This document shows, piece by piece, positions 14,898 to 63,420 of a DNA stretch of 64,000 bases (positions within the stretch are counted from its first letter, which is position 1; each line of letters begins with the position of its first letter). Both the position numbers and the translations under genes were made by a program. The stretch lies in assembly GCF_002119765.1 (NCBI RefSeq), contig NZ_CP021112.1:3590501-3654500 (forward strand). The letters are read 5' to 3'. A model generated the notes under the pieces. The model ran no database searches and had not been told where the DNA came from. It saw only the letters and a program-made list of their open reading frames with translations. Source of the stretch: Pseudorhodoplanes sinuspersici. Its GTDB lineage: Bacteria; Pseudomonadota; Alphaproteobacteria; Rhizobiales; Xanthobacteraceae.

Positions 14898-14931
14898 GAT
14901 AGATCCTCCCTTGAACCAAGTTTATGAAAGG

Positions 14932-44916: not shown

Positions 44917-46281
44917 TTACACACCTCTGCCGATGGCTGCGAGGATCGCACGACGTGTCCGCTCGCCGGCGCATCCGTCCACGTTCCCAGTCCAATGTTC
45001 GAGCGTGGCCGTCTCGTTGGCTCCCAATTGCGCCGGCACCGGGCGTGGCGATCGCGCATATTTGATCAAGAGATCATGCAGTTCGACCGGACTGTGCACC
45101 ACGTCGCCAAGTGGCCGCAGGTCGATCACGTATGGATTTACGTCCGCGCGTTCAGCTTCCGCGAACCACGGCAAGACAACCGGCTTTCCGGCGGCAACGG
45201 CTTCGAGCAATGCCGTGGAATTGAAGCCGCAGACCACAGATGCCTCTGCTATCAGCGGCAGCACGTCGCCGCTGTGAATGACACGAAGGTTGGAGAGAAC
45301 GGGCTGCTCGTCATTCAGCCCGAACGGACGAATGCTTTCGACGATATCGCGCTGCCGGCCTTTGGTTTTTACTACGACCTCGATATCCGGGTTCTCGCGC
45401 GCGAGTTTCAAAATCGTAAGGCACGTCTCCGTGCAAAGCGTGTCCAGCGAGATCGAGTTTTCGCCTTCTTCGATACCGTCATCTTCGAGATAAACCTCGC
45501 CCGTCGTTGCACCCTTTCGCACAATGCGCGGCATGCCTGTCAAAGGGGAGAACAAGAAGAAAAGGATTTTTCGCGGTGCCGTGGTCCCGGTATTGCTGCG
45601 GCGCCAGCTATGGATTCTATCGAGGCGCGGCATTCCGATGATTTGAATTTGCGTCGTAGCCGCGACGCCTGCGCGGAGCTGCAGGTCTTTCTCGATCTGA
45701 TTATAGACGAGAATGCTGTGGCCCGTGAAAGCGCCGCGCCTTTCTTTGTAAATATGTTCAAAAAAGGTTACGCGGCCCGGTGTCTTCAAGTTTTCTTTGT
45801 GCAAGGCGATGAAAGGAATGCGCAGCTCGGACATTGCGGTCGCAAGCTCGCGTTCGGCGCGATAACCGAAATTGCCAGTTACGACGGCATCGATCTGCCT
45901 AAAATGCGAAAGCGCCTTGAACAGTCTTCGAAGGAAATCCCTATAGCGTAACTTGGCGTGATCAAACGTGCTGCCTGCGGACGCATAATTATTGTCATCA
46001 ATGGAGTTGGGAAGGAAGGTACGAAAGATCTCCCGCAGGATCAGTCGCGGCATGGCGAGCACTTCGACATCGTCTGCACTGTCGAGGGCGCTCATGACGT
46101 CTTGGGTGAAGCCATCTTTCGGCAATATCCAAACAGTGTATCGCTTTTTTGATTCAGCGCGCTTCAGCCGTTTGATGAATGGTAAAACCAGGGCTGCGGA
46201 AATCCACGCCAAGCCGAGCCTCGCAGTTCCTCGTAGGGCTGCTAAATAGACGGATTTGACCTTAACGGCGATGGAACTCAT
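44917..46281 (-). CDS. Putative polysaccharide transferase, paralogue A of an unnamed 455-residue family
   Basis: A 454-residue protein with a hydrophobic N-terminal helix (YLAALRGTARLGLAWISAAL then VLPFIKRL). Conserved blocks shared with the gene at 58578-59945 are FLPNSIDDNNYASAG, IPFIALHKENLKTPGRVTFF, IIGMPRLDRIHSWRRS and VVCGFNSTALLEAVAAGKPV. The last matches the NST-x-x-E donor-site motif of Kdo/CDP-glycerol-type GT-B transferases. It is last in the neuB-neuC operon, overlapping the deacetylase gene by 20 bases. A role in transferring the operon's sugar is likely; the reaction is unproven. Confidence 0.7.
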   Translation of the reverse strand: MSSIAVKVKSVYLAALRGTARLGLAWISAALVLPFIKRLKRAESKKRYTVWILPKDGFTQDVMSALDSADDVEVLAMPRLILREIFRTFLPNSIDDNNYASAGSTFDHAKLRYRDFLRRLFKALSHFRQIDAVVTGNFGYRAERELATAMSELRIPFIALHKENLKTPGRVTFFEHIYKERRGAFTGHSILVYNQIEKDLQLRAGVAATTQIQIIGMPRLDRIHSWRRSNTGTTAPRKILFFLFSPLTGMPRIVRKGATTGEVYLEDDGIEEGENSISLDTLCTETCLTILKLARENPDIEVVVKTKGRQRDIVESIRPFGLNDEQPVLSNLRVIHSGDVLPLIAEASVVCGFNSTALLEAVAAGKPVVLPWFAEAERADVNPYVIDLRPLGDVVHSPVELHDLLIKYARSPRPVPAQLGANETATLEHWTGNVDGCAGERTRRAILAAIGRGV

Positions 46282-47215
46282 GGTCACTCAGCACCCGGTC
46301 GACCTCATTGGTATTGATGCGGTCGAGAGCAAACGGCGTATGCTCCGGCTGCACCCATTGTCCGGTTAAAGTCACGCCCACCGAGAAGCCGTGGCGCTTG
46401 CAGAACTCGGCCGGATCAGCTGGAAGAGCCCAATCACGGCCATAAGGATATGACACCCAGTTCGGCGGCCGGCCAGTTGCTTCCGCGAGTGTAGCGATAT
46501 TGAGAGCCATATGCCGGTCTTCGTCATCGCCGAGACGGGTGACCGCGCGATGATCATGCGTGTGTGCACCAATGCAATGTCCACGATCCTCAAGGCTGCG
46601 AAGGGTGCGTCCATCCATATAAGTTTCAGCGCAGAAGGCGCGCTCATCGATGCCGCGGTTTTCGAGCATTGTGCTGGTCACCTGATCAAGCACGTCTTCC
46701 GGCAGAAGGGAGTTGAGCAGATACTTGATCTCGCCATGCTCCGGCCGGTCGTAGATATAAGTCCGCGCCGCTGACGCGCGCTCTTCCGCCGTCAGTTGCC
46801 GGATTCGCCATTCCGGCGGCAGCGCGGCCAATAGTTCGTTGCGAAAGCGGCTAGGCTCGGTCATCGCCCGCAGATAGTGAACCTTGTGGACGGCCAACGC
46901 ACGGTGTTCCGTCAACGGACGGGAGCAGACGAAAAACACCGCCTTGATACCCATCGGGTCGAGGATATCCATTGCGGTCCTCTCGTGATCGACAAGGCCG
47001 TCGTCGAATGTGATCAGCGCGCTCGAACGGGGCAACTCTTTTCCGTGAAGCACATAGGCTTCGGCTTCGTCCGGCGTTGCCATGTGAAGGCAGGAAGCCA
47101 ATTGCTCCATCTGACGACGGAAGGCGTCAGGCGAAATCGGGTGAATACCGGGATGCGCATACAATCCCGGATCGCGCACATAGTGGAAATTGACGAGCAG
47201 CAACCCTTGCGTCAT
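46262..47215 (-). CDS. Polysaccharide deacetylase (CE4/NodB-like)
   Basis: A 317-residue protein. SSALITFDDGLVDHERTAMD holds the DD motif, GHCIGAHTHDHRAVTRL the HxxxH-type metal site, and NWVSYPYGRDW a late CE4 motif. No signal peptide is visible (MTQGLLLVNFHYVRDPGLYA), so it probably acts in the cytosol on a nucleotide- or lipid-linked sugar. ATG 47215 lies eight bases after the sulfotransferase stop; the longer frame overlaps that gene and reads poorly. De-N-acetylation of an amino sugar is the expected reaction. Confidence 0.85.
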   Translation of the reverse strand: MTQGLLLVNFHYVRDPGLYAHPGIHPISPDAFRRQMEQLASCLHMATPDEAEAYVLHGKELPRSSALITFDDGLVDHERTAMDILDPMGIKAVFFVCSRPLTEHRALAVHKVHYLRAMTEPSRFRNELLAALPPEWRIRQLTAEERASAARTYIYDRPEHGEIKYLLNSLLPEDVLDQVTSTMLENRGIDERAFCAETYMDGRTLRSLEDRGHCIGAHTHDHRAVTRLGDDEDRHMALNIATLAEATGRPPNWVSYPYGRDWALPADPAEFCKRHGFSVGVTLTGQWVQPEHTPFALDRINTNEVDRVLSDHEFHRR

Positions 47216-47222
47216 GGCGCGA

Positions 47223-48056
47223 TCAAGCGTCACGCGTATCCGCGACCGCCCGAAGATAAACATCGCCGAAGCCGCGGCTCGCGATGGCTTCCTTGATGTC
47301 CGAGAGGTCCTTGTCGGCGAGGATGTTGCGCCAGATGCCGACACGCTGATTTGTCAGCGGCTCCTTCAGCCGCTCGAGCGTCGTCGAGGCTTTGCCGGTC
47401 GCATCGCGAACTTTGTCAAAGTCGGCCTCACGGCCGCTGAAGGTGCCGACTTGCGGCTCCCATTCCTCATTCAGGAAGCCGATCACCCGCCGCATCGCTG
47501 CGTCAGGCCCGCCGATCAGATCTTCATAGCGGATGACGAGATAAGCCTTGTCGTCCGGTTTGATCTTCGCAATCAGCTCGGATCCCGTTCCGATCGTCGA
47601 GCACCAACGGTCGGCGAATTCGTCTGCGGTACTCCACTTTCCGGCCTCGCGCAGCGATGCGAAGACGTCACGCGGATCGCGCATGATATGGATCACTTGT
47701 GCGTCCGGCCACGCAGACCAGATGCGGTCGACATGAGCGATATTGCCTGGCGTCTTCTCCGCCCAGCGCCGCTTGCCCATGTCGGCGGCGACCTCATTCA
47801 TCAACGACCGGAGGAAGGCTTCCGCGCTTTGCGCCGATTGAGCCAGAGTGTTTACGCGCTCAGATGGAAGATCGAAATAGTCCGCCAGCCGCTGCAGATT
47901 GCCTTGCATCTTTGCACTGTTGCGCTGCGACCAGTCCCAGTCGAACCAGTAAGTCTCGAGGCCTGATGCGATCGCGCTATGCTGGCCCAGCATGGCCCGG
48001 AGAAGGGTCGTGCCCGACTTGAACATTCCGCCGATGAAGATGGGAGCGCTTGTCAT
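47223..48056 (-). CDS. Sulfotransferase family protein
   Basis: A 277-residue PAPS-dependent enzyme. PIFIGGMFKSGTTLLRAMLG is the 5'-phosphosulfate loop and AQVIHIMRDPRDVFASLREA the 3'-phosphate-binding segment with its Arg and Ser. RRWAEKTPGNIAHVDRIW is another family block. ATG 48056 overlaps the cytidylyltransferase stop (ATGA). In this operon it most likely sulfates a surface sugar. Confidence 0.9.
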   Translation of the reverse strand: MTSAPIFIGGMFKSGTTLLRAMLGQHSAIASGLETYWFDWDWSQRNSAKMQGNLQRLADYFDLPSERVNTLAQSAQSAEAFLRSLMNEVAADMGKRRWAEKTPGNIAHVDRIWSAWPDAQVIHIMRDPRDVFASLREAGKWSTADEFADRWCSTIGTGSELIAKIKPDDKAYLVIRYEDLIGGPDAAMRRVIGFLNEEWEPQVGTFSGREADFDKVRDATGKASTTLERLKEPLTNQRVGIWRNILADKDLSDIKEAIASRGFGDVYLRAVADTRDA

Positions 48057-48766
48057 GCTTTGCGTTCTCGGTTCAGCAGCCACTCGGTCAATTCGAGTTC
48101 GAAAGGATCGTCGATATTCACGACATGGCGGTCTATCACGACGGCCTGTGCATCGCGGTCGATGATGCGGCCATGCCCGACGAGATGAGCGCGGGTGACG
48201 GCATAGCACAACCCGTTGCGGTGATAGTAGGCCGGAATGCCCTGACGGAGACTGTGCCGAGCACCGTCGGACAGATAGAAGCCGATGGTACCTTGTTCGT
48301 CCACCGTGAGCGTCTTGTGCGGCGTGTAATGCGCCGGTGTGCGTGAGACTGTCGCCGCCGCCGGTGCATTGGTCTGCAACAACGTTTTTACCGTCAGTTC
48401 CACGTCCTCCGGCCGGCGCATCGGGCTTGTCGGTTCCAGCAACACCGAAATGTCGAACCGGCGGCCATAGTGTTGTTCGGCGGCGAGCCAGGCGTGCCGC
48501 CACATGTCGATCGAGCCGGCAGTGTCTCCGGATAATTCGTCGGGCCGCATGAACGGCGCATCGAGGCCATGCCGGACCGCCTCGTCCCTGATGTCGTGAT
48601 CGTCCGTCGAAATCAGCGCGGCATCGATCCAGGGCAGAGCGCGGGCTACGCCGGCCGCGCGCCCGACAAGCGAAATGCCGCCGATTTCCTTCAGGTTCTT
48701 GCGCGGGATCGATTTCGATCCGCCTCGGGCGGGGACGACCGCAAGAACCGAGCGACCCTCAAGCAT
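48053..48766 (-). CDS. Acylneuraminate cytidylyltransferase family (CMP-nonulosonate synthetase)
   Basis: A 237-residue GT-A-like nucleotidyltransferase. VLAVVPARGGSKSIPRKNLK is the signature, WIDAALISTDDHDIRDEAVR and SVLLEPTSPMRRPEDVELTV bind CTP and sugar acid, and VVNIDDPFELELTEWLLNRE closes the domain. It activates a nonulosonic-type acid as CMP-sugar. Within this locus its substrate should be the NeuB product after modification. It overlaps the oxidoreductase stop by eight bases. Confidence 0.92.
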   Translation of the reverse strand: MLEGRSVLAVVPARGGSKSIPRKNLKEIGGISLVGRAAGVARALPWIDAALISTDDHDIRDEAVRHGLDAPFMRPDELSGDTAGSIDMWRHAWLAAEQHYGRRFDISVLLEPTSPMRRPEDVELTVKTLLQTNAPAAATVSRTPAHYTPHKTLTVDEQGTIGFYLSDGARHSLRQGIPAYYHRNGLCYAVTRAHLVGHGRIIDRDAQAVVIDRHVVNIDDPFELELTEWLLNRERKA

Positions 48767-49769
48767 CCGCTTTTCCCGTCTGTACGGTGCACCCTTCGGC
48801 GCTGCTGGTACGGATCGCCTCTATCAGGTCCATGACCTTGATGCCATCGGCGAGCGTACAGGAGGGCTTGCTGCGTCCGGCAACGACGTCGAGAAATTCG
48901 CGTGCAACAGCCACGAACATATCGTTGCGCTCGCACGTGAACGTTTCTTCCTCCCAGACCTGACCGCTCTGCTTGCCGATTGTGATGCGATTGGGATCGG
49001 CGGACCAAAAGAGGCTGCCACCTTCGCCGATGAAGCGGATGTACTTCTCGTGCGGCCGCCCGTAGAGATCGAGATGCAACGAGACGCGAAGGCCGTCTGG
49101 ATACATAGCCAGCGCATCAACGTTGTCGTCAGTCTCGATATCGAGATCGGAGATCTTCTCGACGCGTCCCGACAGTTCTGCCGGCGTGCCGAAGAACCAA
49201 GTCATTAGATCGATCCAGTGGCTTTCGTCCAGCAATGCGCCGCCGCCCTGTGCGGCGCTGGCCATGAAGAACTCCTGATAGGGTTCCCATGGATGCCAGT
49301 CCGCCAGATGCGCCGACATGTGGAACTGAACGTGACGAAGTTTGCCGATCGTGCCTTCGTTCAAGCGTGAGCGAACCTGCAGCAGAGGCGGCCACCAGCG
49401 CCATGTGTAGCCGAGAAGCACCGGCACGCCGGTCCGCTTTTGGGCGTCGTATATCGTGCGCGCTTCAGCCGCCGTTTTGGCGACCGGCTTTTCCAGCAGT
49501 ACGGGCAGGCCAGCATCCAGGGCCGCGATCGTCTGTGCAGGATGAAATGCGGTTGGCGAGCCGATCACAACCCCATCAAGTCCGCCAGCGGCCAAGGCGG
49601 CTTCGATGGTAGGGTGAGAGCCGACAACCGGCGTCTCGGCAGCAAGCTCTTCGCGACGTTCCGCACGCGGATCGACGCAGGAGATGCGACAGCCCAGCGA
49701 CGCGAGGTTGCGCGCGTGGCGTTTGCCGACGCTACCTGATCCGACAATGAGCATATGAGGAGCGGTCAC
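48759..49769 (-). CDS. Gfo/Idh/MocA family NAD(P)-dependent oxidoreductase
   Basis: A 336-residue enzyme. MLIVGSGSVGKRHARNLASL binds the dinucleotide, GLPVLLEKPVAKTAAEARTI holds the catalytic EKP motif, and GGALLDESHWIDLMTWFFGT is the conserved substrate-side block. GTG 49769 is chosen because TGAGG lies nine bases upstream; GTG 49784 and ATG 49754 are alternatives. The family oxidises or reduces sugars, sugar acids and inositols, and relatives in polysaccharide loci act on UDP-sugars or nonulosonate precursors. It is coupled to the TPP-enzyme gene. Confidence 0.9.
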   Translation of the reverse strand: MTAPHMLIVGSGSVGKRHARNLASLGCRISCVDPRAERREELAAETPVVGSHPTIEAALAAGGLDGVVIGSPTAFHPAQTIAALDAGLPVLLEKPVAKTAAEARTIYDAQKRTGVPVLLGYTWRWWPPLLQVRSRLNEGTIGKLRHVQFHMSAHLADWHPWEPYQEFFMASAAQGGGALLDESHWIDLMTWFFGTPAELSGRVEKISDLDIETDDNVDALAMYPDGLRVSLHLDLYGRPHEKYIRFIGEGGSLFWSADPNRITIGKQSGQVWEEETFTCERNDMFVAVAREFLDVVAGRSKPSCTLADGIKVMDLIEAIRTSSAEGCTVQTGKADA

Positions 49770-49780
49770 GGTTCGATGCC

Positions 49781-51325
49781 TCACCGGATGCCGGCGACCA
49801 TCGCCTCATAGGGCTCAGGCGCAAAGGGAATTTCGAGAAATGCGGGACCGCTCTGCGGCTGCCATGCGGCCAGAGCGGATTCGACCGCCGTGAGATTTTC
49901 GGCACGATGGCTCGGCAGACCCAGCGCCTCGAAGGCGGCGGTCCAGCCCTTGCCGTCCATCGTCAGCGGTTTCTGCGTCAGGCCGTCCTTCAAAGCGCGG
50001 GTTCGGATCGAACTGAAGCTGTTGTCGGTCATCAGGACGATCAGAAGTGGAAGGCGATGCTGTGCGGCTAGTCTTGCTTCCGCGAGATGCATGGCGACAC
50101 CGCCATCACCAAAGACCGCGATGGTCGGTGTCATTGGATCATGCAAGGCAGCGCCGAGTGCCATCGGCAATCCAGTGCCCATGTAGCGGCCTTGACCCGA
50201 CATCAGGCAAAGGTCGGCCTCGCGTGGGCGAAGCGCATGTTCGCCGATCGTGCAGAAGTACCCCGTGTCAAGCACGAGCCGCGCATGACGGTCGAACCTT
50301 CGCTCGATCGCATGGAAAACGGCTCCCGGCAAAAAGCCCTCCTGCATGCGCGCTTGTAAGGCGGCAACGATATGGGCGAGGTCTTCCAAGCCCCAGATGC
50401 GTTGCTGAAGCGGCGTCAGGATCTCTGCCACATGCTCGATGTGGACGCGTGCCGTCGGTGCGAAAGCCGCCGTTCCCGGTGTTTCCACCGCCTCGATGGC
50501 GAGAAACGGTACAGAGAAAGGTTGGGTTGCGAGCGCCTCGCGCGCCGTCAATCCAATGCCGACGATGAGATCGGCCTGACTGAGCAACTGATATTCAGGC
50601 GTCAACTTGAGACCGACGCCGGTGAAGACGCCTGCTGCATTCGCGGCGGTTTCGTCGATGATGCCCTTGGATGCTGCGGTCGAGAAAACCGGGAAGGGAA
50701 AGGAGGCCAGAACGTCGCGTAAGCCTGCGCGATGGGCGAGGGTGCCGGCAATGACGATAGGGCGTTCGGCGCTGTTGACCAGCTTCAAGGCCGCTTGCAG
50801 GTCGCTTTTGACGGTGGGGGCCTGAACGAAGGCGGGAGGATCCGTATCCACCTTGCCGGCCAGCGTCACGACGCTCGGGCCCGGCTCCTCGGCACGAGCG
50901 AAAGCTGCGATCTCAGAAAAGCCCGGACCGGCCTGCGTGAGATAACGCACGTCCTTTACGATCGGGCCGACGAGCGCGGCCTGATCGATGCGCTTGTGCG
51001 CCTTGGACAGAGACGCCTTGGGCGGGAAGCCTTCCGTGAAATGCACCAGCGGAAAGCCTTCGAACCAGGCCGCAGCAATGCCGGGAATGGCGTTGGTCAG
51101 TCCGGGGCCCTTAATGGACAGCGATACGCCGGCTGCATTGGAAAGGCGCCCGACAGTCGCTGCCATCAGCGCGCCCGCGCCTTCGGAATGCGTCAGGTGA
51201 AACGGCACGCCGCGTTTCTCGAGCGCATCGATTAGCGACAGTGTTTCGCCGCTGCCCGGGATGCCGAAGACATGTTTGACACCGTGCTCAGCGATGTCCT
51301 CCGACAGTCGGTTGAAGTCCGTCAT
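49781..51325 (-). CDS. Thiamine-diphosphate-dependent enzyme (acetolactate synthase-like fold)
   Basis: A 514-residue three-domain ThDP enzyme. Glu48 (HLTHSEGAGALMAATVG) is the cofactor-activating glutamate. KGPGLTNAIPGIAAAWFEG is the PYR-domain loop. The PP domain has GDGGVAMHLAEARLAAQHRL at 406 and Asn435 (TDNSFSS), an exact GDG-x26-N motif. It is shorter than acetolactate synthase (about 550-600) and stands alone without a regulatory subunit. In a sugar operon it could make or break a carbon-carbon bond next to a keto group; the substrate is unknown. Confidence 0.88.
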   Translation of the reverse strand: MTDFNRLSEDIAEHGVKHVFGIPGSGETLSLIDALEKRGVPFHLTHSEGAGALMAATVGRLSNAAGVSLSIKGPGLTNAIPGIAAAWFEGFPLVHFTEGFPPKASLSKAHKRIDQAALVGPIVKDVRYLTQAGPGFSEIAAFARAEEPGPSVVTLAGKVDTDPPAFVQAPTVKSDLQAALKLVNSAERPIVIAGTLAHRAGLRDVLASFPFPVFSTAASKGIIDETAANAAGVFTGVGLKLTPEYQLLSQADLIVGIGLTAREALATQPFSVPFLAIEAVETPGTAAFAPTARVHIEHVAEILTPLQQRIWGLEDLAHIVAALQARMQEGFLPGAVFHAIERRFDRHARLVLDTGYFCTIGEHALRPREADLCLMSGQGRYMGTGLPMALGAALHDPMTPTIAVFGDGGVAMHLAEARLAAQHRLPLLIVLMTDNSFSSIRTRALKDGLTQKPLTMDGKGWTAAFEALGLPSHRAENLTAVESALAAWQPQSGPAFLEIPFAPEPYEAMVAGIR

Positions 51326-52269
51326 GGCTCCGCGCCCTGAAGCGTCTTGCGGATCTTGCCGGCCGCGTGCGTGCAAACAAGTCTGACCGCATCCGGGCTG
51401 AAGCCGCCGCAATGCGGAGTGATGAGAAGATTGGGATGGGTTCGGGAGAGAATGACCAACGGATGATCCGTTGTGTCCGGTTCGCCCTTGAGCACATCGA
51501 GGCCGGCGCCGCCGAGATGGCCTGACTCGATCGCATCGTAGAGTGCGGCTTCGTCGACGATGCCGCCACGCGATGTGTTGATCAGGATCGCGCTGGGCTT
51601 CATCTTCTCAACCAGTTCGCGCGAAACGAGGCCTTCGGTTTCCGGCGAGAGATGAACGTGGATCGAGACGAAGTCGCTCGTCGTCACCACCTCTTCGAGG
51701 GAGCGTGGGCTGATGGTGTCGGGAAAATTCGCAAGGTGTGGGTCGAAGCCGATCACCTCCATGCCGAAGGCATTCGCATAGCGCGACATCCAGCCGCCGA
51801 TCCGGCCGCAACCAACGAGACCGAGCCGCTTCCCCTTGAGCATCACGCCCGGAAAGTCCTCGCGCGTCCAACCGCCCCCGGTCACGTGGCTCACGGCAGC
51901 CGGCAGCTTGCGCGCGCAGGCCATGAGCAGCGCCCATGAATGCTCGGCGGCCGGCGTGATGTTGCGCAGGACGTTCGGGTCTTCCTTGAGCGTGCGCACC
52001 GGAATGCCGCGTGCGTCCAGCGCCGCGCGGGCGATGTGGTCCGAGCCGGTGGTCGCACAGGAGATGATTTTGAGATTGGGTGCGGCAGACACCATGTCGT
52101 CGGTGATGCGTGTCTTCATCGACGCGTCGAGCAGTCCGTCGGCAGTGCGAAGCGCGGCGGCGACGTCGGGCTGCTCAGCCGCCACGTGCTGGACCTTCGC
52201 CACGCCTTCGAGTGCGGCCTTTGTCGCTTCGTAGCCTTCCGTCGCACCAAGATAGATCACCTGTTTCAT
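51322..52269 (-). CDS. D-2-hydroxyacid dehydrogenase family protein
   Basis: A 315-residue NAD-dependent enzyme. KRLGLVGCGRIGGWMSRYAN is the Rossmann motif, AILINTSRGGIVDEAALYDA holds the catalytic Arg region and LLITPHCGGFSPDAVRLVCT the catalytic His. A Glu before it (KGEPDTTDHPLV) completes the relay. ATG 52269 gives the normal family N-terminus (MKQVIYLGATEGYEA). Stop and next start overlap by ATGA. It would oxidise or reduce the alpha-hydroxy/keto group of an acid in the pathway. Confidence 0.92.
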   Translation of the reverse strand: MKQVIYLGATEGYEATKAALEGVAKVQHVAAEQPDVAAALRTADGLLDASMKTRITDDMVSAAPNLKIISCATTGSDHIARAALDARGIPVRTLKEDPNVLRNITPAAEHSWALLMACARKLPAAVSHVTGGGWTREDFPGVMLKGKRLGLVGCGRIGGWMSRYANAFGMEVIGFDPHLANFPDTISPRSLEEVVTTSDFVSIHVHLSPETEGLVSRELVEKMKPSAILINTSRGGIVDEAALYDAIESGHLGGAGLDVLKGEPDTTDHPLVILSRTHPNLLITPHCGGFSPDAVRLVCTHAAGKIRKTLQGAEP

Positions 52270-52282
52270 ACGGGTGATCCCC

Positions 52283-53185
52283 TTAGTCCTTACGAACCAG
52301 CACGGCGTATAGATAGTCGCCGCTACCTTCGAGCTCCAATGCGCGGGCCCAGACCGCATCCAGCAACGGAGCATTGATATTCGGCAGCGGCTTATGGCCG
52401 CCAGGCTTCTTGTCCCGCAGCCAGATCAGCGCATTCGAGATGCCAAACCGATGCACGCAGCGCATCTGCTCGACCTCCAGGCCAGCGGATTGCGCGCAAC
52501 GGGTCAGCGATGCCACATCGAAATACCAGCGGTGGACAGCGCGGTAGAAAAAAGCGGGGTAGGTGTCCGGAAGAAGGCTCATCAGCACATCTGCCCGGTT
52601 GGGCGTTGAGATGAGAACGCGGCCACCCGGCTTTACGATCGATCGGATGTCGGCGAGGAAGCTTTTTGGATCGCTGACATGCTCGATCACGCTGAACGAG
52701 AACGCCCAGTCGACAGTGCCGGCTTCGCCCATATCGGACGGCGACGCATAGACCTCGAACCCCCGATCCGAAAGCGACTGATGATATGGAATGCACGGCT
52801 CGACCGCGATCGCGCGGGCCGGCAGGCCTTTCACATGGTCCAGAAAGCTGCCGGCGGCACAGCCGATATCGGCAATGGTCTTGCCACGCAGCGTTTCGGG
52901 CCAGAGCTGCTGCAGGTTCTGCAATTGCAGTCTGTCGTGCTCAGCGAAGAAACCGGCAGCGTCAGTAGCTTCATTGAGCGCGGCCCGGTAGTCGGTGCCC
53001 TTGTAGAAATTCTCGTCCTTGGTGGTGTCCTCAGCCAAGCGCTCAACGCCGCAGCTTCCGCAACGCGCGACAACCGTTGGCTTGGTGAGCCGCCCGAACG
53101 CGCCGTCGCGAACAGGCCCGCGATAGGTCGCGTGCCAGTCCGACGAGCCGCAGATTTCGCATGCCTGAAATTGGTCAACCGACAT
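52283..53185 (-). CDS. Class I SAM-dependent methyltransferase with an N-terminal zinc-knuckle
   Basis: A 300-residue protein. Two CxxC pairs at the start (FQACEICGSSDWHATYRG and VVARCGSCGVERLAED) form a likely zinc site, as in sugar C-methyltransferases. The SAM domain has GKTIADIGCAAGSFLDHVKG, FSFSVIEHVSDPKSFLADIR and PGGRVLISTPNRADVLMSLL. A C- or O-methylation of the locus sugar is likely. ATG 53185 lies inside the end of neuC (11-base overlap). Confidence 0.88.
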   Translation of the reverse strand: MSVDQFQACEICGSSDWHATYRGPVRDGAFGRLTKPTVVARCGSCGVERLAEDTTKDENFYKGTDYRAALNEATDAAGFFAEHDRLQLQNLQQLWPETLRGKTIADIGCAAGSFLDHVKGLPARAIAVEPCIPYHQSLSDRGFEVYASPSDMGEAGTVDWAFSFSVIEHVSDPKSFLADIRSIVKPGGRVLISTPNRADVLMSLLPDTYPAFFYRAVHRWYFDVASLTRCAQSAGLEVEQMRCVHRFGISNALIWLRDKKPGGHKPLPNINAPLLDAVWARALELEGSGDYLYAVLVRKD

Positions 53186-54335
53186 AGGAGAGTTTTTTCT
53201 GAATGCGGAAATCGGCAACGGCGAGGATGTCGGCGATCTGGTTACCGGCGGTTCCGTTGCCAAACAATGTCGACGGTTCATATGCGCCATGCGCAAGCTG
53301 ACGACCAATGGCGGCTTCAATCTTTCCAGCTTCGTAGGGCACATCGATGACGTTGGCGCCTCGCTCGCGACCTTGCTGCCGTGTGCCAATGTTGACGCAC
53401 GGAATGCCCATGAACGCGCCTTCGCGAAGGCCGGACGATGAATTGCCGACCAGGCAGGCGCAGTGCTTGATGAGCCGCAAATAATCTTCGGGTGAGAAGT
53501 TTCTGTAGAAATGCAGATAGTCCGGATTGTGATGCTCGCGGAACACCCGCAGTCCTTTCGAAACATCGTCCGAGCCAGCATCCACATTGGGCCACAGCCA
53601 GGCAACCTGCATTCCGATCTTCGAAATGGCGTTCAAGGTTTCGCTGATCTGAGTGAAGCCTTGCCCGTATTCCGTAGTGACAGGGTGCTGCAACACTACG
53701 AGATATGGACGATCTGGATTGATGTCGGCGCCCACACCGGCGTAGCGCTTGAACAGATCGGGCGGCAAAGTCAGATCGGCGTCGGCAACCAGATCCATGG
53801 CCGGACATCCTGTCAGATGCACGGTGTCTTCTTCCTCGCCCATGCGCAGCAGAAATTCATGCGCCCGCTCCGTCGCCGGAAAGTGGATATGCGAAAGCTT
53901 GGTGACGGCGTGGCGGACGCTTTCGTCTATCGACCCAGTCACTTCACCGCCCTGCGTATGAGCGACCGGAATATTCATATAACTCGCCGCAATTGCCGTT
54001 GCGATCGTTTCGAAACGATCAGCGACTGTCAGCACAACGTCCGGTCGAATGTTCTCAAATTGTGAGGCAAGTTCGAGTACGCCGAGGCCGGTGGACTTGG
54101 CCATTGTCGTTGGCGTTTCTCCCTCGACGATCGAATGCACAACCGCGGTGGGTTCAAACCCGTCGTTTCGAATAATATCGATCACGCTGCCAAAGCGGTG
54201 CAACAGAGCTGAGGCGCCGACGAGAAGCTGCAGCTCCAGCCGTGGATGCTGCTGAATGGCCCGCATGGCGCTTTTGATGCGTCCGTAATTTGCGCGGCTA
54301 TTGACAACAACACAGATTTTGCGGCGCTCAGGCAT
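53175..54335 (-). CDS. neuC: UDP-N-acetylglucosamine 2-epimerase (hydrolysing), NeuC type
   Basis: A 386-residue GT-B-like enzyme. KICVVVNSRANYGRIKSAMR opens it, VLTVADRFETIATAIAASYM and IPVAHTQGGEVTGSIDESVR are the epimerase signature, and CACLVGNSSSGLREGAFMGI with VNIGTRQQGRERGANVIDVP the UDP site. The hydrolysing class releases free ManNAc (or its 2,4-diamino analogue) for NeuB. Start is ATG 54335, eight bases inside the neuB end. Which UDP-sugar it takes cannot be read directly. Confidence 0.94.
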   Translation of the reverse strand: MPERRKICVVVNSRANYGRIKSAMRAIQQHPRLELQLLVGASALLHRFGSVIDIIRNDGFEPTAVVHSIVEGETPTTMAKSTGLGVLELASQFENIRPDVVLTVADRFETIATAIAASYMNIPVAHTQGGEVTGSIDESVRHAVTKLSHIHFPATERAHEFLLRMGEEEDTVHLTGCPAMDLVADADLTLPPDLFKRYAGVGADINPDRPYLVVLQHPVTTEYGQGFTQISETLNAISKIGMQVAWLWPNVDAGSDDVSKGLRVFREHHNPDYLHFYRNFSPEDYLRLIKHCACLVGNSSSGLREGAFMGIPCVNIGTRQQGRERGANVIDVPYEAGKIEAAIGRQLAHGAYEPSTLFGNGTAGNQIADILAVADFRIQKKLSYVG

Positions 54336-55377
54336 CAACGTCTTCCCAGGAAAGCAGATTTCTTGCGTCTACGGCACGTTTGAGCCGCTTTCCCACCAAT
54401 TGGTCAATGGCGGCCGCTGGAATGCCGCTGCCGGGCTTTTTTAGTGTCAGCATATCGCGGGTCAACGTTGTTCCTACCGATGCATTACCAACCAGCGCGA
54501 CGCTCTTGCCGAAAATCTGCCGAGTCGGTCGCAGCGAATTCGCCAGCATGTCCTTGTCGACCGGATGGCTCAGCATCTGGTGGAAGGCATCGCGTGCATC
54601 GGCAAGAAGAAGGAACTCATCGGGGGTGAGAGAGGCCGCTGTATCCGGGCCGAACATTCGCCGATCGAAAACGATATGTGCTTCGATCATATTGGCGCCA
54701 TGAGCCATCGCGGCGAGGGCGGGAAACACGGATCCTGAATGGTCGGAGAGGCCCACGGGACAATTGAAACGCCGTCTGAATTCATCAAGGACGTTTAGGC
54801 CGACGTCCTTCAATGCAACGGGATACTGCGATGTGCATTGGAAAAGTGCTACGCTGGTGCCACGTTCGCGCAAGGACGCGACGACTTGTTCGACTTCCGC
54901 ATAACTGCTCATGCCAGTGCTCAGCAGAACTGGACCACCGGCTTTAGCCATCGCGCCAAGGAGGTCGTTTGATCCAATTTCGCCGGATCCAACTTTCCAG
55001 GCGACCATGTTGATGCGAGCCAGCATCTCGACCGCTCGAACCGAAAAAGCAGAACTTAAAAATATCAGCCCCCGCGCGGTCGCGTGTTCGGCGAGCCCGG
55101 CCCACTGATCAGGCGTGAACTCCATCCGCTTCCAGTAGGCGTAGCGCGTCTCATCCTGCTTGGAAAATTTGATCCGGAATGGTTCGTCGAGGGTGGATTC
55201 GGCGTCGGCAATATGCGTCTGGAATTTGATCGCGTCGGCCTTAGCCTCGGCCGCGGCGTCAATATAGGCGTGCGCAGCACCGAGCGAGCCATCGTGGGCC
55301 TGGGCAACTTCGGCGATCAAAAAGGCAGGGTGGCCCGGTCCGATCGGACGGCTTCCTATGCTAATAACCTGGTTCAC
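54328..55377 (-). CDS. neuB: N-acetylneuraminate synthase family protein (NeuB type)
   Basis: A 349-residue enzyme from GTG 55377. The TIM barrel has AFLIAEVAQAHDGSLGAAHA, ADAIKFQTHIADAESTLDEP and WKVGSGEIGSNDLLGAMAKA, all part of the PEP and Mn site; CPVGLSDHSGSVFPALAAMA is also characteristic. A C-terminal antifreeze-like SAF domain ends in DMLTLKKPGSGIPAAAIDQL. It condenses PEP with a six-carbon N-acyl sugar to a nine-carbon acid. It is first in the long minus-strand operon; a 200-bp gap upstream separates it from a glycosyltransferase gene. Confidence 0.94.
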   Translation of the reverse strand: MNQVISIGSRPIGPGHPAFLIAEVAQAHDGSLGAAHAYIDAAAEAKADAIKFQTHIADAESTLDEPFRIKFSKQDETRYAYWKRMEFTPDQWAGLAEHATARGLIFLSSAFSVRAVEMLARINMVAWKVGSGEIGSNDLLGAMAKAGGPVLLSTGMSSYAEVEQVVASLRERGTSVALFQCTSQYPVALKDVGLNVLDEFRRRFNCPVGLSDHSGSVFPALAAMAHGANMIEAHIVFDRRMFGPDTAASLTPDEFLLLADARDAFHQMLSHPVDKDMLANSLRPTRQIFGKSVALVGNASVGTTLTRDMLTLKKPGSGIPAAAIDQLVGKRLKRAVDARNLLSWEDVDA

Positions 55378-56760: not shown

Positions 56761-58581
56761 TTAGTGGGCCATTCCAGCGCGGCTGAAATCGGCTGGATCC
56801 AATTCCTCAGCTTTAGCGTTTTCGATTCGATAAATAGTCTTCGCTCCAAGAATGATGTCCTGTCTGTGCGAAATAACGACCACTGGATGTGTCAGTGAGA
56901 GCTGATTAATGAGGTCGTTGATTATCGTCTCGCTGTCTCGATCCAGCGCGCTAGTCGGTTCGTCAAAGATATAAAGGTCCGGATTGCGGAGTAATTCACG
57001 GGCAAGCGCAAGTCGTTGCCGTTGCCCACCGGAGAGCAAATGTCCAGCCCGCCCGAGTTCGGTCGAGTAGCCATTTTCCATAGTCGAGACGAAATCGTCG
57101 ACGTGGGCCAGACGCGCGACATCGAGCATTTCTGCTTCGGTCGCATCAGGTCGTCCCATCATCAAATTCTCCGCAACCGTCCCATCAAAAAGCTGCGGTT
57201 CCTGTGACAAGTAGCCGACGCGTGCGCGCAAAGACCGTACGTCAAACTCGTTGACATCCCGTCCACTAACCAGAACACGACCATGATCAGCTTTTCGCAG
57301 CCGGACGATAAGATCGACCAACGTCGTTTTACCGCTGCCGGAGGGGCCGATGATCGCGGTTAGTCCGACAGCCGGAATTCGCATGTTAAGATGATCGAAG
57401 ATGATGTGACGGCCTACCGGTTGAAGCGAGACGTTGTCGAACACAATCTCTCCGCTGAAGCCGGGGAATGGCACCGATCCAGGCAGTTGTTCAGTTGCAA
57501 TCCCCATCGCTTCATTTACGGCTTGCAGCGGTGCCAAGGAACTTGCGATTTGCAATCGCTTTGAAAACAGCTGTGTGGCGCTGGCTGCAAGGCGCAGGAA
57601 AACCAGGCCGAACAGGGCAGTGGTTGGCAGCACGTCTTCGATTTTCATCTTCAGGGCCGCTGTCATAAAGAGAATGACAGCCGCGCCAACTATTACGGCA
57701 ATGAGATCGATCATGTTGCCCGGCAAGCCGCTCGCGACTTCAAATTTGGTATCGACCGAGCGGTAATGCAGAAGCATCTGACGCAGCCCTTTCGCGCGTC
57801 GCGTGGCGAGATCGAGTAGCTTGATCGTACGCAGCCCCGTGATCGTCTCGCTGACAAGTTTGCTCGCGTCGCGCCGAAGTTCCCGTCTCGCCTGTCCTGC
57901 CTCAAGTGAAAAACGTTGCGCGCCTTTCCAGGATAGAGCGGACGCCAGCCCCCCCAAGATCAAGACAAAGACAGTTGTCTGCCAATTGGTGAGCAGCAAC
58001 AAGAGCAAGAGCACGCCGGCCTGAATACATCGGGCGGAAAAATCTACGAGCAAAAGTACCCCACGCGCCGCTAGCTCGGTTTCTCCGATGATTGTCTGTA
58101 TGACTTCTCCGTGAGGGCGAGACGCTGAGATTGAGTATGGACCCTTAAGGTAAGCCAGCAAACTTCGCGTAGTCCAATCCATCCGCAACGTATTGATAAA
58201 CCATCGCGTCATCCCGGACGACGCGATGAGGCTGATGCTTTTCACCAAAAAAACGAACGCAAGCATACCGAGTAGGCCCGGAACGCGCCATTCTTGCGGC
58301 ACTGATTGGCTGATTTGTGAGAATGTCAATTGAAGAAAATTGTCGCTGTTCGCAGGCGGGTTAGATGACAACAAGGTTTGCAGTAACGGGACCACGAGGG
58401 AGAAGCCGATACCCTCGACGATCGCTGTAAAGAGGAATGCAAAAAACAGCGCAACGATCTGATGCCAATGCCCTTTGAGCATTGGTGGCAACAGTTGCTT
58501 GATCGGGAGTTGCTCAGAGGCGCCGGTTGAAAATTGTTTCACCGAGTCCTCAGCAGAACGCGTATGCTTCTGTTTCTTCAT
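56761..58581 (-). CDS. ABC exporter, lipid-linked oligosaccharide flippase-like
   Basis: A 606-residue half-transporter. Six membrane spans lie in residues 35-320 (first: IVALFFAFLFTAIVEGIGFS). The ATPase has Walker A GPSGSGKTTLVDLIVRL, Q-loop VGYLSQEPQLFDGTVAENLM, signature LLSGGQRQRLALARELL and Walker B LYIFDEPTSALDRDS. It resembles PglK/WlaB-type flippases and lipid A exporters. It is bracketed by glycosyltransferase-like genes and so most likely flips the polysaccharide repeat or its lipid carrier. Start overlaps the upstream stop by ATGA. Confidence 0.88.
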   Translation of the reverse strand: MKKQKHTRSAEDSVKQFSTGASEQLPIKQLLPPMLKGHWHQIVALFFAFLFTAIVEGIGFSLVVPLLQTLLSSNPPANSDNFLQLTFSQISQSVPQEWRVPGLLGMLAFVFLVKSISLIASSGMTRWFINTLRMDWTTRSLLAYLKGPYSISASRPHGEVIQTIIGETELAARGVLLLVDFSARCIQAGVLLLLLLLTNWQTTVFVLILGGLASALSWKGAQRFSLEAGQARRELRRDASKLVSETITGLRTIKLLDLATRRAKGLRQMLLHYRSVDTKFEVASGLPGNMIDLIAVIVGAAVILFMTAALKMKIEDVLPTTALFGLVFLRLAASATQLFSKRLQIASSLAPLQAVNEAMGIATEQLPGSVPFPGFSGEIVFDNVSLQPVGRHIIFDHLNMRIPAVGLTAIIGPSGSGKTTLVDLIVRLRKADHGRVLVSGRDVNEFDVRSLRARVGYLSQEPQLFDGTVAENLMMGRPDATEAEMLDVARLAHVDDFVSTMENGYSTELGRAGHLLSGGQRQRLALARELLRNPDLYIFDEPTSALDRDSETIINDLINQLSLTHPVVVISHRQDIILGAKTIYRIENAKAEELDPADFSRAGMAH

Positions 58582-59945
58582 GCCACGGCTGCAGTGTTGC
58601 GCGCTTCTGACGCTGAGACCTCTTGTTGGATGATAGCCGAAACTCGTTCACTTGCTTTGCCATCAGCATTGCCAGCCCATCGATCGAGACAGTCGATGGA
58701 ATGCGGGTCAAGTTCCGGTAAAACGAATGGCGGCGGTCCGTTCGTAATGTCGGATAGCCGAGTCACAAGAGCATCCGGAGTTCTAGCCAGTTCGACAGCC
58801 CGTCCAAAGTCCGCTATCCACGGCGACATTGCTGGATCGGCTGCTTCGGCAAAACCGGGCGATAGGACAATCTTGCCCATCGCCAGTGCCTCAAGCAACG
58901 CCGTAGAGTTCATCCCAACCACGACCCAGGCTTCCTTGAGTAACTCGAGAGGATCGCCGCCTTCGACGAAACGTATGTTCGCTGGCACCTCACCCTCGGC
59001 AATTTGGTGGAAACTGGTCAGGTGTCCTGCGGCGCGCTTTGATTTCAGGATCACAGTCACATGCTGATTTTCTCTTGCGAAGCGCAGCATTGCTTCGATC
59101 GTCAACTGTGCGGTTTTTTGCCAGCTAAGCTTATCGAAAGCAGGCAATGCTTCGGTCATCTCTCCATTGCCGAATTTTCTTCGCAACACCGGCAAGCCCG
59201 TCTTGGCGCCGAAAGTAAAAAACAGCACCAAGGGTTTATGGGGGAGCGGCTTTCGAGCCTCGCTCCGCCGCCAGGCGTGTGCCCGATCAAGTCGTGGCAT
59301 GCCGCAGATACTGATCCTGTCCGCAGATGCGATGCCGGCGGCAATCTGCACTTCACGCTCGAAGGAATTGTACACGATTATGCGCCGTCCGCTGAATGGG
59401 CCGCGCCGCCGACGGTAGTGATCCTCGTAGTACGACAAGCGAGCGGCGCTTTTGAGGTTCTCTTTGTGCAAAATGATGAAAGGGACATCAATCTCCTCCG
59501 ACGCGCCATGTAATTCCCGCTCCGCAAAATAAGCGAAATTACCGCTGATGATCACATCAATCCTGGAAAGCATCAGCAAGTGGCGCAATGTCTTGCGTAA
59601 GAATTCGCGATAAATGCGTTTTGCTGCCTCTTCTTCGGTGGACAGGTTGGCGTAATTATTGTCGTCGATCGTGCTCGGTAGGAACCCGATCGAGATTGCC
59701 TTCATGATGCCGCTTGGAGCCGTCAGAAGATCGATGTCTCGCCCTGTGCTCAGTGCCGCCTGGGCGTCCTCTGTCAGGCCAGGACGCGGTAATATAAGCG
59801 CTCGGAGGCGTCGCGAAGGAGCGTTCGGGCGACGTCGCGAGATTTGCTGCAAGGACGCCCACAGGAGCAAGGCCACAACGCGGGGAGACCTGAGATATGA
59901 GCGACGGCAGACAAAAGCGAGAGCCGCCCGTATAACCGTTTCCAT
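58578..59945 (-). CDS. Putative polysaccharide transferase, paralogue B of an unnamed 455-residue family
   Basis: A 455-residue protein, the same size as the relative at 44917-46281 (454). Shared blocks: FLPSTIDDNNYANLS, VPFIILHKENLKSAARLSYY, ICGMPRLDRAHAWRRSE and WVVVGMNSTALLEALAMGKI. A hydrophobic helix lies near the N-terminus (VVALLLWASLQQIS). ATG 59945 is chosen since the frame upstream to 60134 reads as non-coding. It is coupled by ATGA to the flippase-type exporter gene. GT-B Kdo/CDP-glycerol-type transferase is the best guess. Confidence 0.7.
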   Translation of the reverse strand: METVIRAALAFVCRRSYLRSPRVVALLLWASLQQISRRRPNAPSRRLRALILPRPGLTEDAQAALSTGRDIDLLTAPSGIMKAISIGFLPSTIDDNNYANLSTEEEAAKRIYREFLRKTLRHLLMLSRIDVIISGNFAYFAERELHGASEEIDVPFIILHKENLKSAARLSYYEDHYRRRRGPFSGRRIIVYNSFEREVQIAAGIASADRISICGMPRLDRAHAWRRSEARKPLPHKPLVLFFTFGAKTGLPVLRRKFGNGEMTEALPAFDKLSWQKTAQLTIEAMLRFARENQHVTVILKSKRAAGHLTSFHQIAEGEVPANIRFVEGGDPLELLKEAWVVVGMNSTALLEALAMGKIVLSPGFAEAADPAMSPWIADFGRAVELARTPDALVTRLSDITNGPPPFVLPELDPHSIDCLDRWAGNADGKASERVSAIIQQEVSASEARNTAAVA

Positions 59946-60185
59946 TTTGTTCGCTCGCCTTCCTTGAGGTGATTTTGATGTCACCGCTAAGACGGGTCTA
60001 TAAGGAGGGGGGCTATGGCTGGCAATGGATCTTCTAGGGCAGCGTCCGACCATGGCAGGATGTTGACTTGTCGTCGCTGAGGCGGGCAAACGGTTTCGCC
60101 GGACCGCTGGCAAGGTCGAATTTGGCGATCTCAATCCGGCCCGAATATCGGGCTGCGTCGGGGCATAATTGTAAACGGAAATGAG

Positions 60186-61082
60186 ATGAAAAGGCTGCTG
60201 TTACACGTTGGCTATCCGAAATCCGCAAGCACAAGTTTGCAGAACGGCCTTTTTCTGGGTTTGCATAAGGCGGGCGCTATCAATTTTCTGGGGCGGGCTT
60301 TTGAGAGTGACTTCTACGGCGAAAAGCAAAGTAAGGGCCTGTACAAGATTTGGTTTGATCATGTCTTGGCAAGCGGTCCTTACCAGGCCAACCCGATTGG
60401 AGAATTATCGAAATGTCTCCCCAATGTGTTGTCGGAGGGCCTCTTCATGATGAACGAGCGACGCCACGAGCGTATTATCGGGCCCGCCGTTCTGCACAAA
60501 TACTTTACCCCGCACGCCGATAAGGTTGGTGTATTGATCGTTATAAGAAAACAGCAGGATTTGATCCCCTCCTATTATGTCCAGAATTACCGAAGGTTCG
60601 AAAATGTTTTCAGCGATTTTCTGACGCGTCACAAAAGCGAAGATTGGAAGGGCGAGACCAAAATTTTTAATTTTCACGAGGTCGCAAAGGCATATGCAGC
60701 GGTCTTTGGGAAAGATGACGTCCATATCGTCTTTTTCGAAGACTTCGTTCGGAACAGAAGCAGATTTAGCGAGCAGTTGGGATGTGCGATGGGTGTCGAT
60801 CCGGCTGTCGTTCAATCGCATCTTGGTGATGGCCATTTGAACGAGGCGCCAAAAAAGGCGAACGCTGTCATGGTTCGCAAGCCGTCCAAATTTTCAGGGC
60901 GTCTGACCAAGATTTCCGAGAAACTAGGTCTCGGTCTTGCGGATTTCTTCCAGGTTCCTTTGCCTCCCATTGCCGACAAGGAAAGGGCTTTCATCCAGGA
61001 GAGCTTCCGAGATAGCAATCTTCGTTTGGCAGAGGATTTTGCGCTGGATAAGCAGACAATGCAGAGCCACGGGTATTTTTGA
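60186..61082 (+). CDS. Sulfotransferase-like protein
   Basis: A 298-residue protein. RLLLHVGYPKSASTSLQNGL matches the 5'-phosphosulfate loop and KVGVLIVIRKQQDLIPSYYV the 3'-phosphate segment (Arg plus Ser). FNFHEVAKAYAAVFGKDDVH and VVFFEDFVRN-like HIVFFEDFVRNRSRFSEQLG follow the usual order. A+T content is higher than in the core LPS genes, and the gene stands alone between opposing transcription units, which suggests separate acquisition. Its acceptor is probably a surface glycan. Confidence 0.78.
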   Translation: MKRLLLHVGYPKSASTSLQNGLFLGLHKAGAINFLGRAFESDFYGEKQSKGLYKIWFDHVLASGPYQANPIGELSKCLPNVLSEGLFMMNERRHERIIGPAVLHKYFTPHADKVGVLIVIRKQQDLIPSYYVQNYRRFENVFSDFLTRHKSEDWKGETKIFNFHEVAKAYAAVFGKDDVHIVFFEDFVRNRSRFSEQLGCAMGVDPAVVQSHLGDGHLNEAPKKANAVMVRKPSKFSGRLTKISEKLGLGLADFFQVPLPPIADKERAFIQESFRDSNLRLAEDFALDKQTMQSHGYF

Positions 61083-61209
61083 TACGCTTTGAGACGTCTA
61101 AATACGAATAATTCAGCAGCTATTGTTTGGCCCAAAACCATTTCCGCGTGCTGCTTCAGACATGACGATGCTGACGAGCTAACTTGTCATCCTGGTGCCG
61201 CTTCTGTCT

Positions 61210-63132: not shown

Positions 63133-63420
63133 GGTGCTCCTCCTGACGTCCTAAGTGAATGTTCGGCAATGGTAATGAGAATGGCGTGCTCGGACTGCGT
63201 GTATTTGCAGTCTCTTAGAATTTCAAGGGTGAAAACATGATGCGATTTTCTGGCCGCGCATTTCAGCGCGATATTCGCTCTTTTGCCGTAATATATTCCT
63301 ACCACGCTAGTCCATTCTGGTGAAAGATGTGGGAGTTCCGAATGGCGAGCGGAGCGAAAACCATCGGCCGGCCACCTTTCTTTTTCTTTGTAGCAGAGAG
63401 TTTTCAGCAGGGTGTGTAAT
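63133..63420. other. A+T-rich region without a supported gene
   Basis: Between the acyltransferase start and the decayed methyltransferase. A minus-strand frame (63482-63129) of 117 codons ends on the acyltransferase start (CTGA), but its text has no family resemblance and poor codon use. The AGGAGG at 63144-63139 is the acyltransferase ribosome site. Confidence 0.45.

Follow-up and report, generated by a model that had tools for sequence, protein, structure and literature searches.

Which sugar is made by an operon in which neuB, neuC and a CMP-nonulosonate synthetase gene (neuA) stand together with genes for a D-2-hydroxyacid dehydrogenase (2HADH), a thiamine diphosphate (ThDP)-dependent enzyme and a Gfo/Idh/MocA oxidoreductase (Gfo)? 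The question is raised by ten minus-strand genes found in a 64,000-nucleotide stretch (the window) of the complete, 5.97-Mb genome of Pseudorhodoplanes sinuspersici, which run from neuB at 55377 to a putative glycosyltransferase gene at 44917. The original prediction, made from the letters of this stretch, treated the genes from neuB to a deacetylase gene as one unit, and this has been borne out: nine genes occupy 46262-55377, the tenth (44917-46281) overlaps the deacetylase gene by 20 bp, and with the chosen starts all junctions are overlaps of 4-20 bp or gaps of at most 13 bp. From this spacing, the ten genes are probably transcribed together. The predicted gene families agree with the Pfam matches, to which a sulfotransferase, left out of the earlier reasoning, has been added. 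An unusual nonulosonic acid (NulO), proposed earlier as a possible product, is retained as the likeliest one, together with a conserved gene set and with scores of the legionaminic and pseudaminic acid markers LegB and PseB below their cut-offs. With a confidence just short of even, we propose that the operon directs the synthesis of a CMP-activated, C-branched or chain-extended nonulosonic acid for a surface glycan, through carbon-skeleton chemistry carried out by the 2HADH-ThDP-Gfo module.

The ThDP protein was used as the bait in the survey of conservation. Among 84,980 named species genomes, a pattern scan, in which relatives can be missed, yielded 35 loci, 21 of which (L008-L028) contain best segments 44-63% identical to the bait, the other 14 reaching at most 29%. 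The 21 close loci all belong to metagenome-assembled genomes (MAGs), the titles of which include Bradyrhizobiaceae, Desulfonatronovibrio, Nitrospira, Burkholderiales, Rhodospirillaceae, Rhizobium and Gammaproteobacteria, and the nearest named relative (L008) is a Bradyrhizobiaceae MAG. With the home genome counted each time, the bait is rare, being present in 2 of 61 relatives, 5 of 385 genomes of the class and 3 of 391 genomes of the family. A plasmid home for the gene was rejected, since 72,556 plasmid records gave no match at E<=1e-40; a search of the PHROGs database returned one ThDP family without an assigned function and no match for three other proteins.

The order 2HADH-ThDP-Gfo is kept in alpha-, beta- and gammaproteobacterial and Nitrospira MAGs. 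Synteny was counted over 25 loci from 24 genomes, with gene contents taken from tblastn; the picking of open reading frames sometimes took the antisense frame, as for the ThDP gene in L021 and L023. In each of the 24 loci where both are seen, the 2HADH gene adjoins the ThDP gene; the distance to the Gfo gene that follows is at most 20 bp in 20 of 23 loci (130, 563 and 1786 bp in L010, L025 and L011, respectively), and neuA lies within 13 bp of Gfo in all 21 loci showing the two. At its two sides, the module is adjoined by neuA in 21/25 loci and by neuB-neuC, directly upstream, in 15/25, six of the latter with a methyltransferase gene in between. Because of these adjacency counts and because the methyltransferase is present in just 6 of the 26 module genome handles, the conserved core is 2HADH-ThDP-Gfo, usually with the synthetase; the methyltransferase is optional and was rejected as a core part. 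Thus, of the ordered set that had been predicted to recur elsewhere, the three-gene order stands in distant bacteria and the place of the methyltransferase does not.

The module is also tied to a particular kind of NulO pathway where the genes are not adjacent. Whole-genome searches, unlinked cases included, detected a close NeuB in 25/26 and a close NeuC in 25/26 handles (the handles include two duplicates, so these counts correspond to 23 of 24 genomes). The single miss is the Desulfonatronovibrio MAG (G445, 1.8 Mb), in which a 3.3-kb contig shows just 2HADH, ThDP and a piece of neuC. NeuA was found in 22 of the 24 module genomes, in one of them (G341) about 12 kb from the ThDP gene. In eight genomes neuB-neuC stand apart from the module (L015, which is the same genome as L006, L018-L021, L023, L024 and L028; L018 covers just 4.8 kb upstream), and in G455 and G459 a single contig carries both gene groups at a distance of about 100 kb. 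With the home genome left out, the class sample (n=384) has four ThDP genomes, all of them among the 24 with a NeuB at E<=1e-60; the corresponding p of 1.2e-5 is not an independent test because the genes are linked in three of the four. Of the 20 class genomes that have such a NeuB and lack the module, 13 encode a ThDP protein at E<=1e-15, none of them more than 34% identical.

Since NeuC exceeds its NCBIfam cut-off and neither LegB nor PseB does so in the home genome, the base sugar is most likely of the N-acetylneuraminic acid (Neu5Ac) type, made via N-acetylmannosamine (ManNAc), as far as profile matches can tell. The best LegB score in the whole home genome is 123.9 bits (cut-off 475) and the best PseB score 159.7 bits (cut-off 407.75), the latter for a CapD-like protein at 38240-40153. 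Searches of 24 genomes (home and 23 others, with G445 left out) found LegB over the cut-off in two and PseB in seven, with neither in 17; the seven PseB genomes all carry further NeuB matches, 29-36% identical, as do some without PseB. The LegC aminotransferase and the acetyltransferase have no Pfam match among the ten operon proteins, the compass of that search, which was not extended to the genome. The predicted absence of legionaminic and pseudaminic acid markers accordingly holds genome-wide for LegB and PseB, and within the operon for the other two. On the two genome-wide results, legionaminic and pseudaminic acid were rejected as products. The Campylobacter legionaminic acid pathway (ptm/leg) presumably resembles the operon in its NeuB, NeuC, synthetase and oxidoreductase set; it differs in LegB, and we know of no ThDP enzyme in it. 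The bacterial Neu5Ac pathway NeuC-NeuB-NeuA (NnaA/B/C) shares its three genes with the operon, and the profile of the NeuB clade aligns nearly end to end with meningococcal SiaC. In contrast to that pathway, the SAF domain of this clade has Lys where 1xuu has Arg, and the operon adds the three-gene module, the sulfotransferase and the deacetylase.

The module enzymes keep the residues that we take to be the functional motifs of their families (alignments A1 and A2 without L027, A3 without L009, L018 and L027, all from named-genome loci only). In the ThDP enzyme, E48 and G406-D407-G408 are invariant in 21 sequences and presumably are the catalytic Glu and the GDG motif of ThDP enzymes; Asp434, also invariant, occupies what we believe is the place of the usual metal-binding Asn, and the residues from Y356 to H363 form a further invariant stretch. 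With these motifs and its N, M and C TPP domains, the protein falls in the ThDP decarboxylase/carboligase superfamily, and its structural model (pLDDT 88.9) has acetolactate synthase 1ozg as the top match in the PDB (TMq 0.83, 22% identity). R234, E263 and H286 of 2HADH are invariant in 21 sequences, and E98-K99-P100 and D186/H189 of Gfo in 19; both sets are assumed to be the expected motifs of their families. A 2-hydroxyacid dehydrogenase can yield a 2-keto acid and a Gfo/Idh enzyme a keto-sugar, and a ThDP enzyme can couple the two.

We therefore consider the following scheme, in which all substrates, the order of steps and the formation of a C-C bond on the sugar are deduced from enzyme families. 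NeuC and NeuB would convert UDP-N-acetylglucosamine (UDP-GlcNAc) into a nine-carbon acid of the Neu5Ac type, and the module would change the carbon skeleton of the finished acid or of a ManNAc-level precursor. Gfo may oxidise a sugar hydroxyl to a ketone; 2HADH may turn a 2-hydroxyacid into a 2-keto acid donor, or balance NADH; and the ThDP enzyme may decarboxylate this donor and couple the resulting carbon unit to the keto-sugar. The synthetase would then activate the modified acid, and the transferase, sulfotransferase and deacetylase would complete the glycan. To our knowledge, the skeleton in known NulO routes is set by the NeuB condensation alone. A more specific version, possible but on balance unlikely, is a new class of NulO with more than nine backbone carbons: a sialic acid, C-branched or with an extended chain, to whose synthesis the 2HADH-ThDP-Gfo module would be dedicated; a second C-C bond-forming step would then precede or follow the NeuB condensation, and the module, together with its NeuB, NeuC and CMP-synthetase, would have spread as a cassette among distant bacteria.

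Does the module act after NeuB or before it? The original prediction placed the remodelling between NeuB and CMP activation, which gene order alone does not show: neuB-neuC are unlinked in the eight genomes above, and L015 and L028 have no neuA adjoining the module. The home genome has a single NeuB match, in which H213, H234 and E133, presumably metal and catalytic residues, are invariant in an alignment of 12 sequences; in a larger one, H213 and H234 are found in 49/49 rows and E133 in 46/49. In a quick maximum-likelihood search without bootstrap, from which rows that fell below 85% length, contained a stop or duplicated another row were dropped and G445 and G464 are absent, all 23 module rows and five module-free rows form one group of 28 (SH-aLRT 97). 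The module-free rows are nested in this group, so the module has been acquired and lost again, or acquired repeatedly. The Nitrospira and Burkholderiales NeuBs are sisters (support 99), a sign of interphylum transfer, provided that the binning is correct.

A module acting before NeuB would alter a sugar at the UDP-GlcNAc or ManNAc level, and NeuB would be adapted to the special substrate so formed. We rate this as doubtful but quite conceivable; it is a question of order that overlaps with the skeleton chemistry proposed above, and the likelihoods given to the two do not sum to one. This order is kept in play by NeuB residues 130 and 179, which share short motifs with the presumed catalytic residues and track the presence of the module: position 130 is Gly in 22/23 module rows vs 1/18 module-free rows, and position 179 is Phe in 21/23 vs 1/18. 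Position 182 is Thr in 23/23 vs 9/18. Within the 28-row group, four of the five module-free rows have Ala130 and Leu179; the only one with Gly130 and Phe179 (L064) comes from a locus (L089) with a 40% identical 2HADH near neuB-neuC. Furthermore, the relatives of Gfo include the UDP-GlcNAc 3-dehydrogenase model (58.9 bits, below its cut-off) and PDB entries 3q2k and 3q2i, which we take to be WlbA-type UDP-sugar dehydrogenases. Against an early-acting module, 12 NeuB positions (51, 53, 55, 128, 131, 133, 180, 185, 211, 213, 234 and 314) are the same in 41/41 rows, with or without the module, module-free NeuBs are nested in the group, NeuC exceeds the cut-off for the ordinary UDP-GlcNAc reaction, and the module is adjoined more often by neuA than by neuB-neuC. 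Taken together, the NeuB evidence is mixed and may reflect the same basic condensation in a pocket tuned to a changed substrate or product.

Several observations weigh against the proposed skeleton chemistry. The nearest solved relatives of the ThDP enzyme are acetolactate synthases, the acceptor of which is a 2-keto acid and not a sugar ketone. NeuB (276.7 bits for NeuB_NnaB, TIGR03569, equivalog cut-off 399.65) and the synthetase miss their NCBIfam equivalog cut-offs, which counts against a Neu5Ac-type base. The pattern at NeuB 130 and 179 speaks against a simple add-on step after NeuB, and the module is absent from 5 of the 28 close NeuB rows, so that these NulO genes also occur without it. 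Seven of the eight unlinked cases fall in one group of the NeuB tree (the eighth is absent from the tree) and thus represent few independent events. Finally, the names of the hosts rest on binning, since all 21 close loci are MAGs.

Apart from the order of steps, the best-surviving alternative, and a rather improbable one, is that the product of the module is a small acyl or hydroxyacyl group, to be added later to an amine or hydroxyl of an otherwise ordinary Neu5Ac-type acid, the backbone of which keeps nine carbons. The 2HADH and ThDP enzyme families found here handle small 2-keto and 2-hydroxy acids, the module can stand apart from neuB-neuC, and the deacetylase-family gene could free an amine. 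A moiety of 236 Da on the NulO of the Shewanella flagellin glycan, given in the available part of PMC3765264, is also consistent with a substituent. Such a route leaves unexplained the sugar-type Gfo/Idh enzyme, present in 23/23 loci that reach far enough, and no acyltransferase, CoA ligase or ATP-grasp protein was found among the nine operon proteins with Pfam matches.

It is very unlikely that the genes are mere neighbours, that is, that a catabolic enzyme of the acetolactate type and two dehydrogenases lie beside a plain Neu5Ac pathway without contributing to NulO synthesis. All three enzyme families are common and NulO loci without them exist; nevertheless, order and adjacency are kept across distant bacteria, the module co-occurs almost completely with one NeuB/NeuC clade, and the pairwise distances of six proteins over 15 rows correlate (r 0.63-0.92, shared host history still included). 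Chance association was rejected on the recurrence of the set and its order in other bacteria and on the correlated distances. The earlier speculation about bradyrhizose, which the nearest named relative, a Bradyrhizobiaceae MAG, might seem to favour, is barely credible and was rejected: the module is rare in the family (three of the 391 genomes, home included) and occurs in a Nitrospira MAG and others, no Bradyrhizobium-titled record is among the 35 loci of the pattern scan, with its possible misses, and another candidate, an 11-gene cluster with a dTDP-glucose 4,6-dehydratase gene, appears in the available text of PMC4743980, the gdh-type dehydratase described there having no counterpart among the ten operon proteins.

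Judging from the available text, the nearest precedent for the operon is sfmABCDE of Shewanella oneidensis, which encodes a NeuB-domain protein, an ilvB-type ThDP protein, a predicted reductase, a methyltransferase and an ATP-grasp protein (PMC3765264). Its loss shifts the flagellin mass, and the glycan that depends on it probably includes a nonulosonic acid. A NeuB beside a ThDP enzyme, with a methyltransferase in the same operon, is therefore already known, and the partners differ: as described there, sfm has a PtmA-like reductase, an ATP-grasp protein and a 581-aa ThDP protein (SfmB, likened to ours by description only), and 2HADH, Gfo, NeuC and the synthetase are not among its five described genes. 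Neither the PtmA-like reductase nor the ATP-grasp family was found among the ten operon proteins, one of which has no Pfam match. Another type of NeuB and ThDP locus was seen at L041:8632-14458, L036:7277-13719 and L042:8237-9927, with matched parts 22-29% identical and, in L036 and L041, ThDP proteins of about 600 aa; by eye, L041 and L042 have a HAD-like gene and L041 also a Gfo-like one, and these loci look closer to the sfm type.

For the chemistry itself, the available part of PMC12247030 describes YerE-like ThDP enzymes that branch sugars of lipopolysaccharide, yersiniose and erwiniose, by comparable logic. By analogy, the enzyme studied here may carry out a YerE-like carboligation on a keto-sugar, both being members of the ThDP decarboxylase superfamily encoded in surface-sugar loci, here with Gfo as the putative sugar-oxidising partner. 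Unlike the YerE-like enzymes, as far as that text describes them, it is nearest to acetolactate synthases (the likeness to YerE being by description), and its operon has no 4,6-dehydratase or CDP-hexose gene. A search of the open-access literature, at the level of titles and abstracts and with subscription papers mostly not covered, gave no description of the 2HADH-ThDP-Gfo set with neuB; in the available text of PMC9000132 and PMC4758666, 'thiamine' occurs in another sense.

Genes of the operon and its surroundings, with positions in the window and supporting matches
Feature	Position	Strand	Evidence
neuB, nonulosonic acid synthase, NeuB and SAF domains	54328..55377	-	PF03102 215.6 bits, SAF 27.4
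neuC, hydrolysing UDP-GlcNAc 2-epimerase	53175..54335	-	NeuC_NnaA (TIGR03568) 387.6 bits > cut-off 235.9
S-adenosylmethionine (SAM) methyltransferase, optional part	52283..53185	-	Methyltransf_23 80.4 bits
D-2-hydroxyacid dehydrogenase (2HADH), first core-module gene	51322..52269	-	2-Hacid_dh_C 180.7 bits
ThDP-dependent enzyme, acetolactate-synthase-like, core module	49781..51325	-	Pfam TPP_enzyme_N/M/C
Gfo/Idh/MocA oxidoreductase, core module	48759..49784 (alternative start 49754)	-	three GFO_IDH_MocA domains
CMP-nonulosonate synthetase, PseF/NeuA-like	48053..48766	-	CTP_transf_3 50.2 bits; PseF 106.7 < cut-off 205.7
Sulfotransferase	47223..48056	-	Sulfotransfer_3 122.6 bits
Polysaccharide-deacetylase-family enzyme	46262..47215	-	Polysacc_deac_1 61.9 bits
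Putative glycosyltransferase, probable GT-B-like fold	44917..46281	-	no Pfam match; TIGR04396 38.2 bits < cut-off 125
ABC exporter upstream, candidate glycan flippase (context)	56761..58581	-	ABC_tran and ABC_membrane
Second member of the putative glycosyltransferase family of the tenth gene (context)	58578..60134	-	no Pfam match

Along the operon, neuB overlaps neuC by 8 bp and neuC the methyltransferase gene by 11 bp; after a gap of 13 bp, 2HADH overlaps ThDP by 4 bp, ThDP overlaps Gfo by 4 bp (or is separated from it by 26 bp if Gfo starts at 49754), Gfo overlaps neuA by 8 bp and neuA the sulfotransferase gene by 4 bp, and 7 bp separate the latter from the deacetylase gene. The nearest upstream gene ends at 55578, 200 bp ahead of neuB, and a promoter scan found one site, fewer than in shuffled sequences (mean 4.2). 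Compared with L008 over nine genes (methyltransferase left out), third codon positions differ most (0.53-0.59, vs 0.15-0.35 for first and 0.07-0.27 for second positions). An ABC gene similar to the one upstream precedes neuB in locus L012.

The protein encoded by the tenth gene belongs to a family with no Pfam match and two copies in the window, the part of the second copy at 58578-59963 being 37% identical to it. Its model (pLDDT 82.7) matches, among the 50 PDB entries listed, mostly UDP-GlcNAc 2-epimerases and two glycosyltransferases with TMq 0.34-0.50; at such low TM-scores, the structure search gave no specific family. Four tandem members of the family, 35-41% identical, adjoin a module operon at L114:36-5650. 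Other loci, too, have sulfotransferase matches close to the module, and in L024 a sulfatase gene (13968-15194, by Pfam) follows downstream of the module and the synthetase gene at a distance of about 1 kb. At 60001-64000 the G+C content of the window drops to 0.512 (0.589 window-wide), and this part holds an acyltransferase-SGNH gene and a second sulfotransferase-like gene.

NulO genes also occur in other arrangements. A second nonulosonate-type locus, L012:36-2510, shares the contig of a module locus and again has 2HADH beside NeuB (synthetase 31%, 2HADH 44% and NeuB 33% identical). In a survey of further NulO loci, which excludes the end of L102 to the start of L105, 2HADH genes (38-40% identical) were found near neuB and neuC at L089:4085-9087 and L101:1699-5905; the fetched stretches of both loci contain no ThDP or Gfo match, and L089 also carries an asparagine-synthase-like gene. 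In several Alphaproteobacteria, apparently marine by their isolate names (L106-L111), genes of the peptidase M20 family flank neuB-neuC and the module is located elsewhere (called by Pfam for two L106 proteins and one L108 protein, and by a similar start for the others); small genes that by eye look like NusG/RfaH are also near neuB-neuC there.

New here is the 2HADH-ThDP-Gfo partner set of a NeuB clade, which leaves a conserved product to be accounted for. Many bacteria are coated with nonulosonic acids, whose chemistry determines by what the cell is recognised. That one NeuB clade is accompanied by such a trio in distant bacteria suggests an uncatalogued member of the sialic acid family and indicates which genes should be expressed. 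Should the ThDP enzyme indeed couple carbon units to a sugar ketone, it would be a candidate biocatalyst for making tertiary alcohols on complex sugars.

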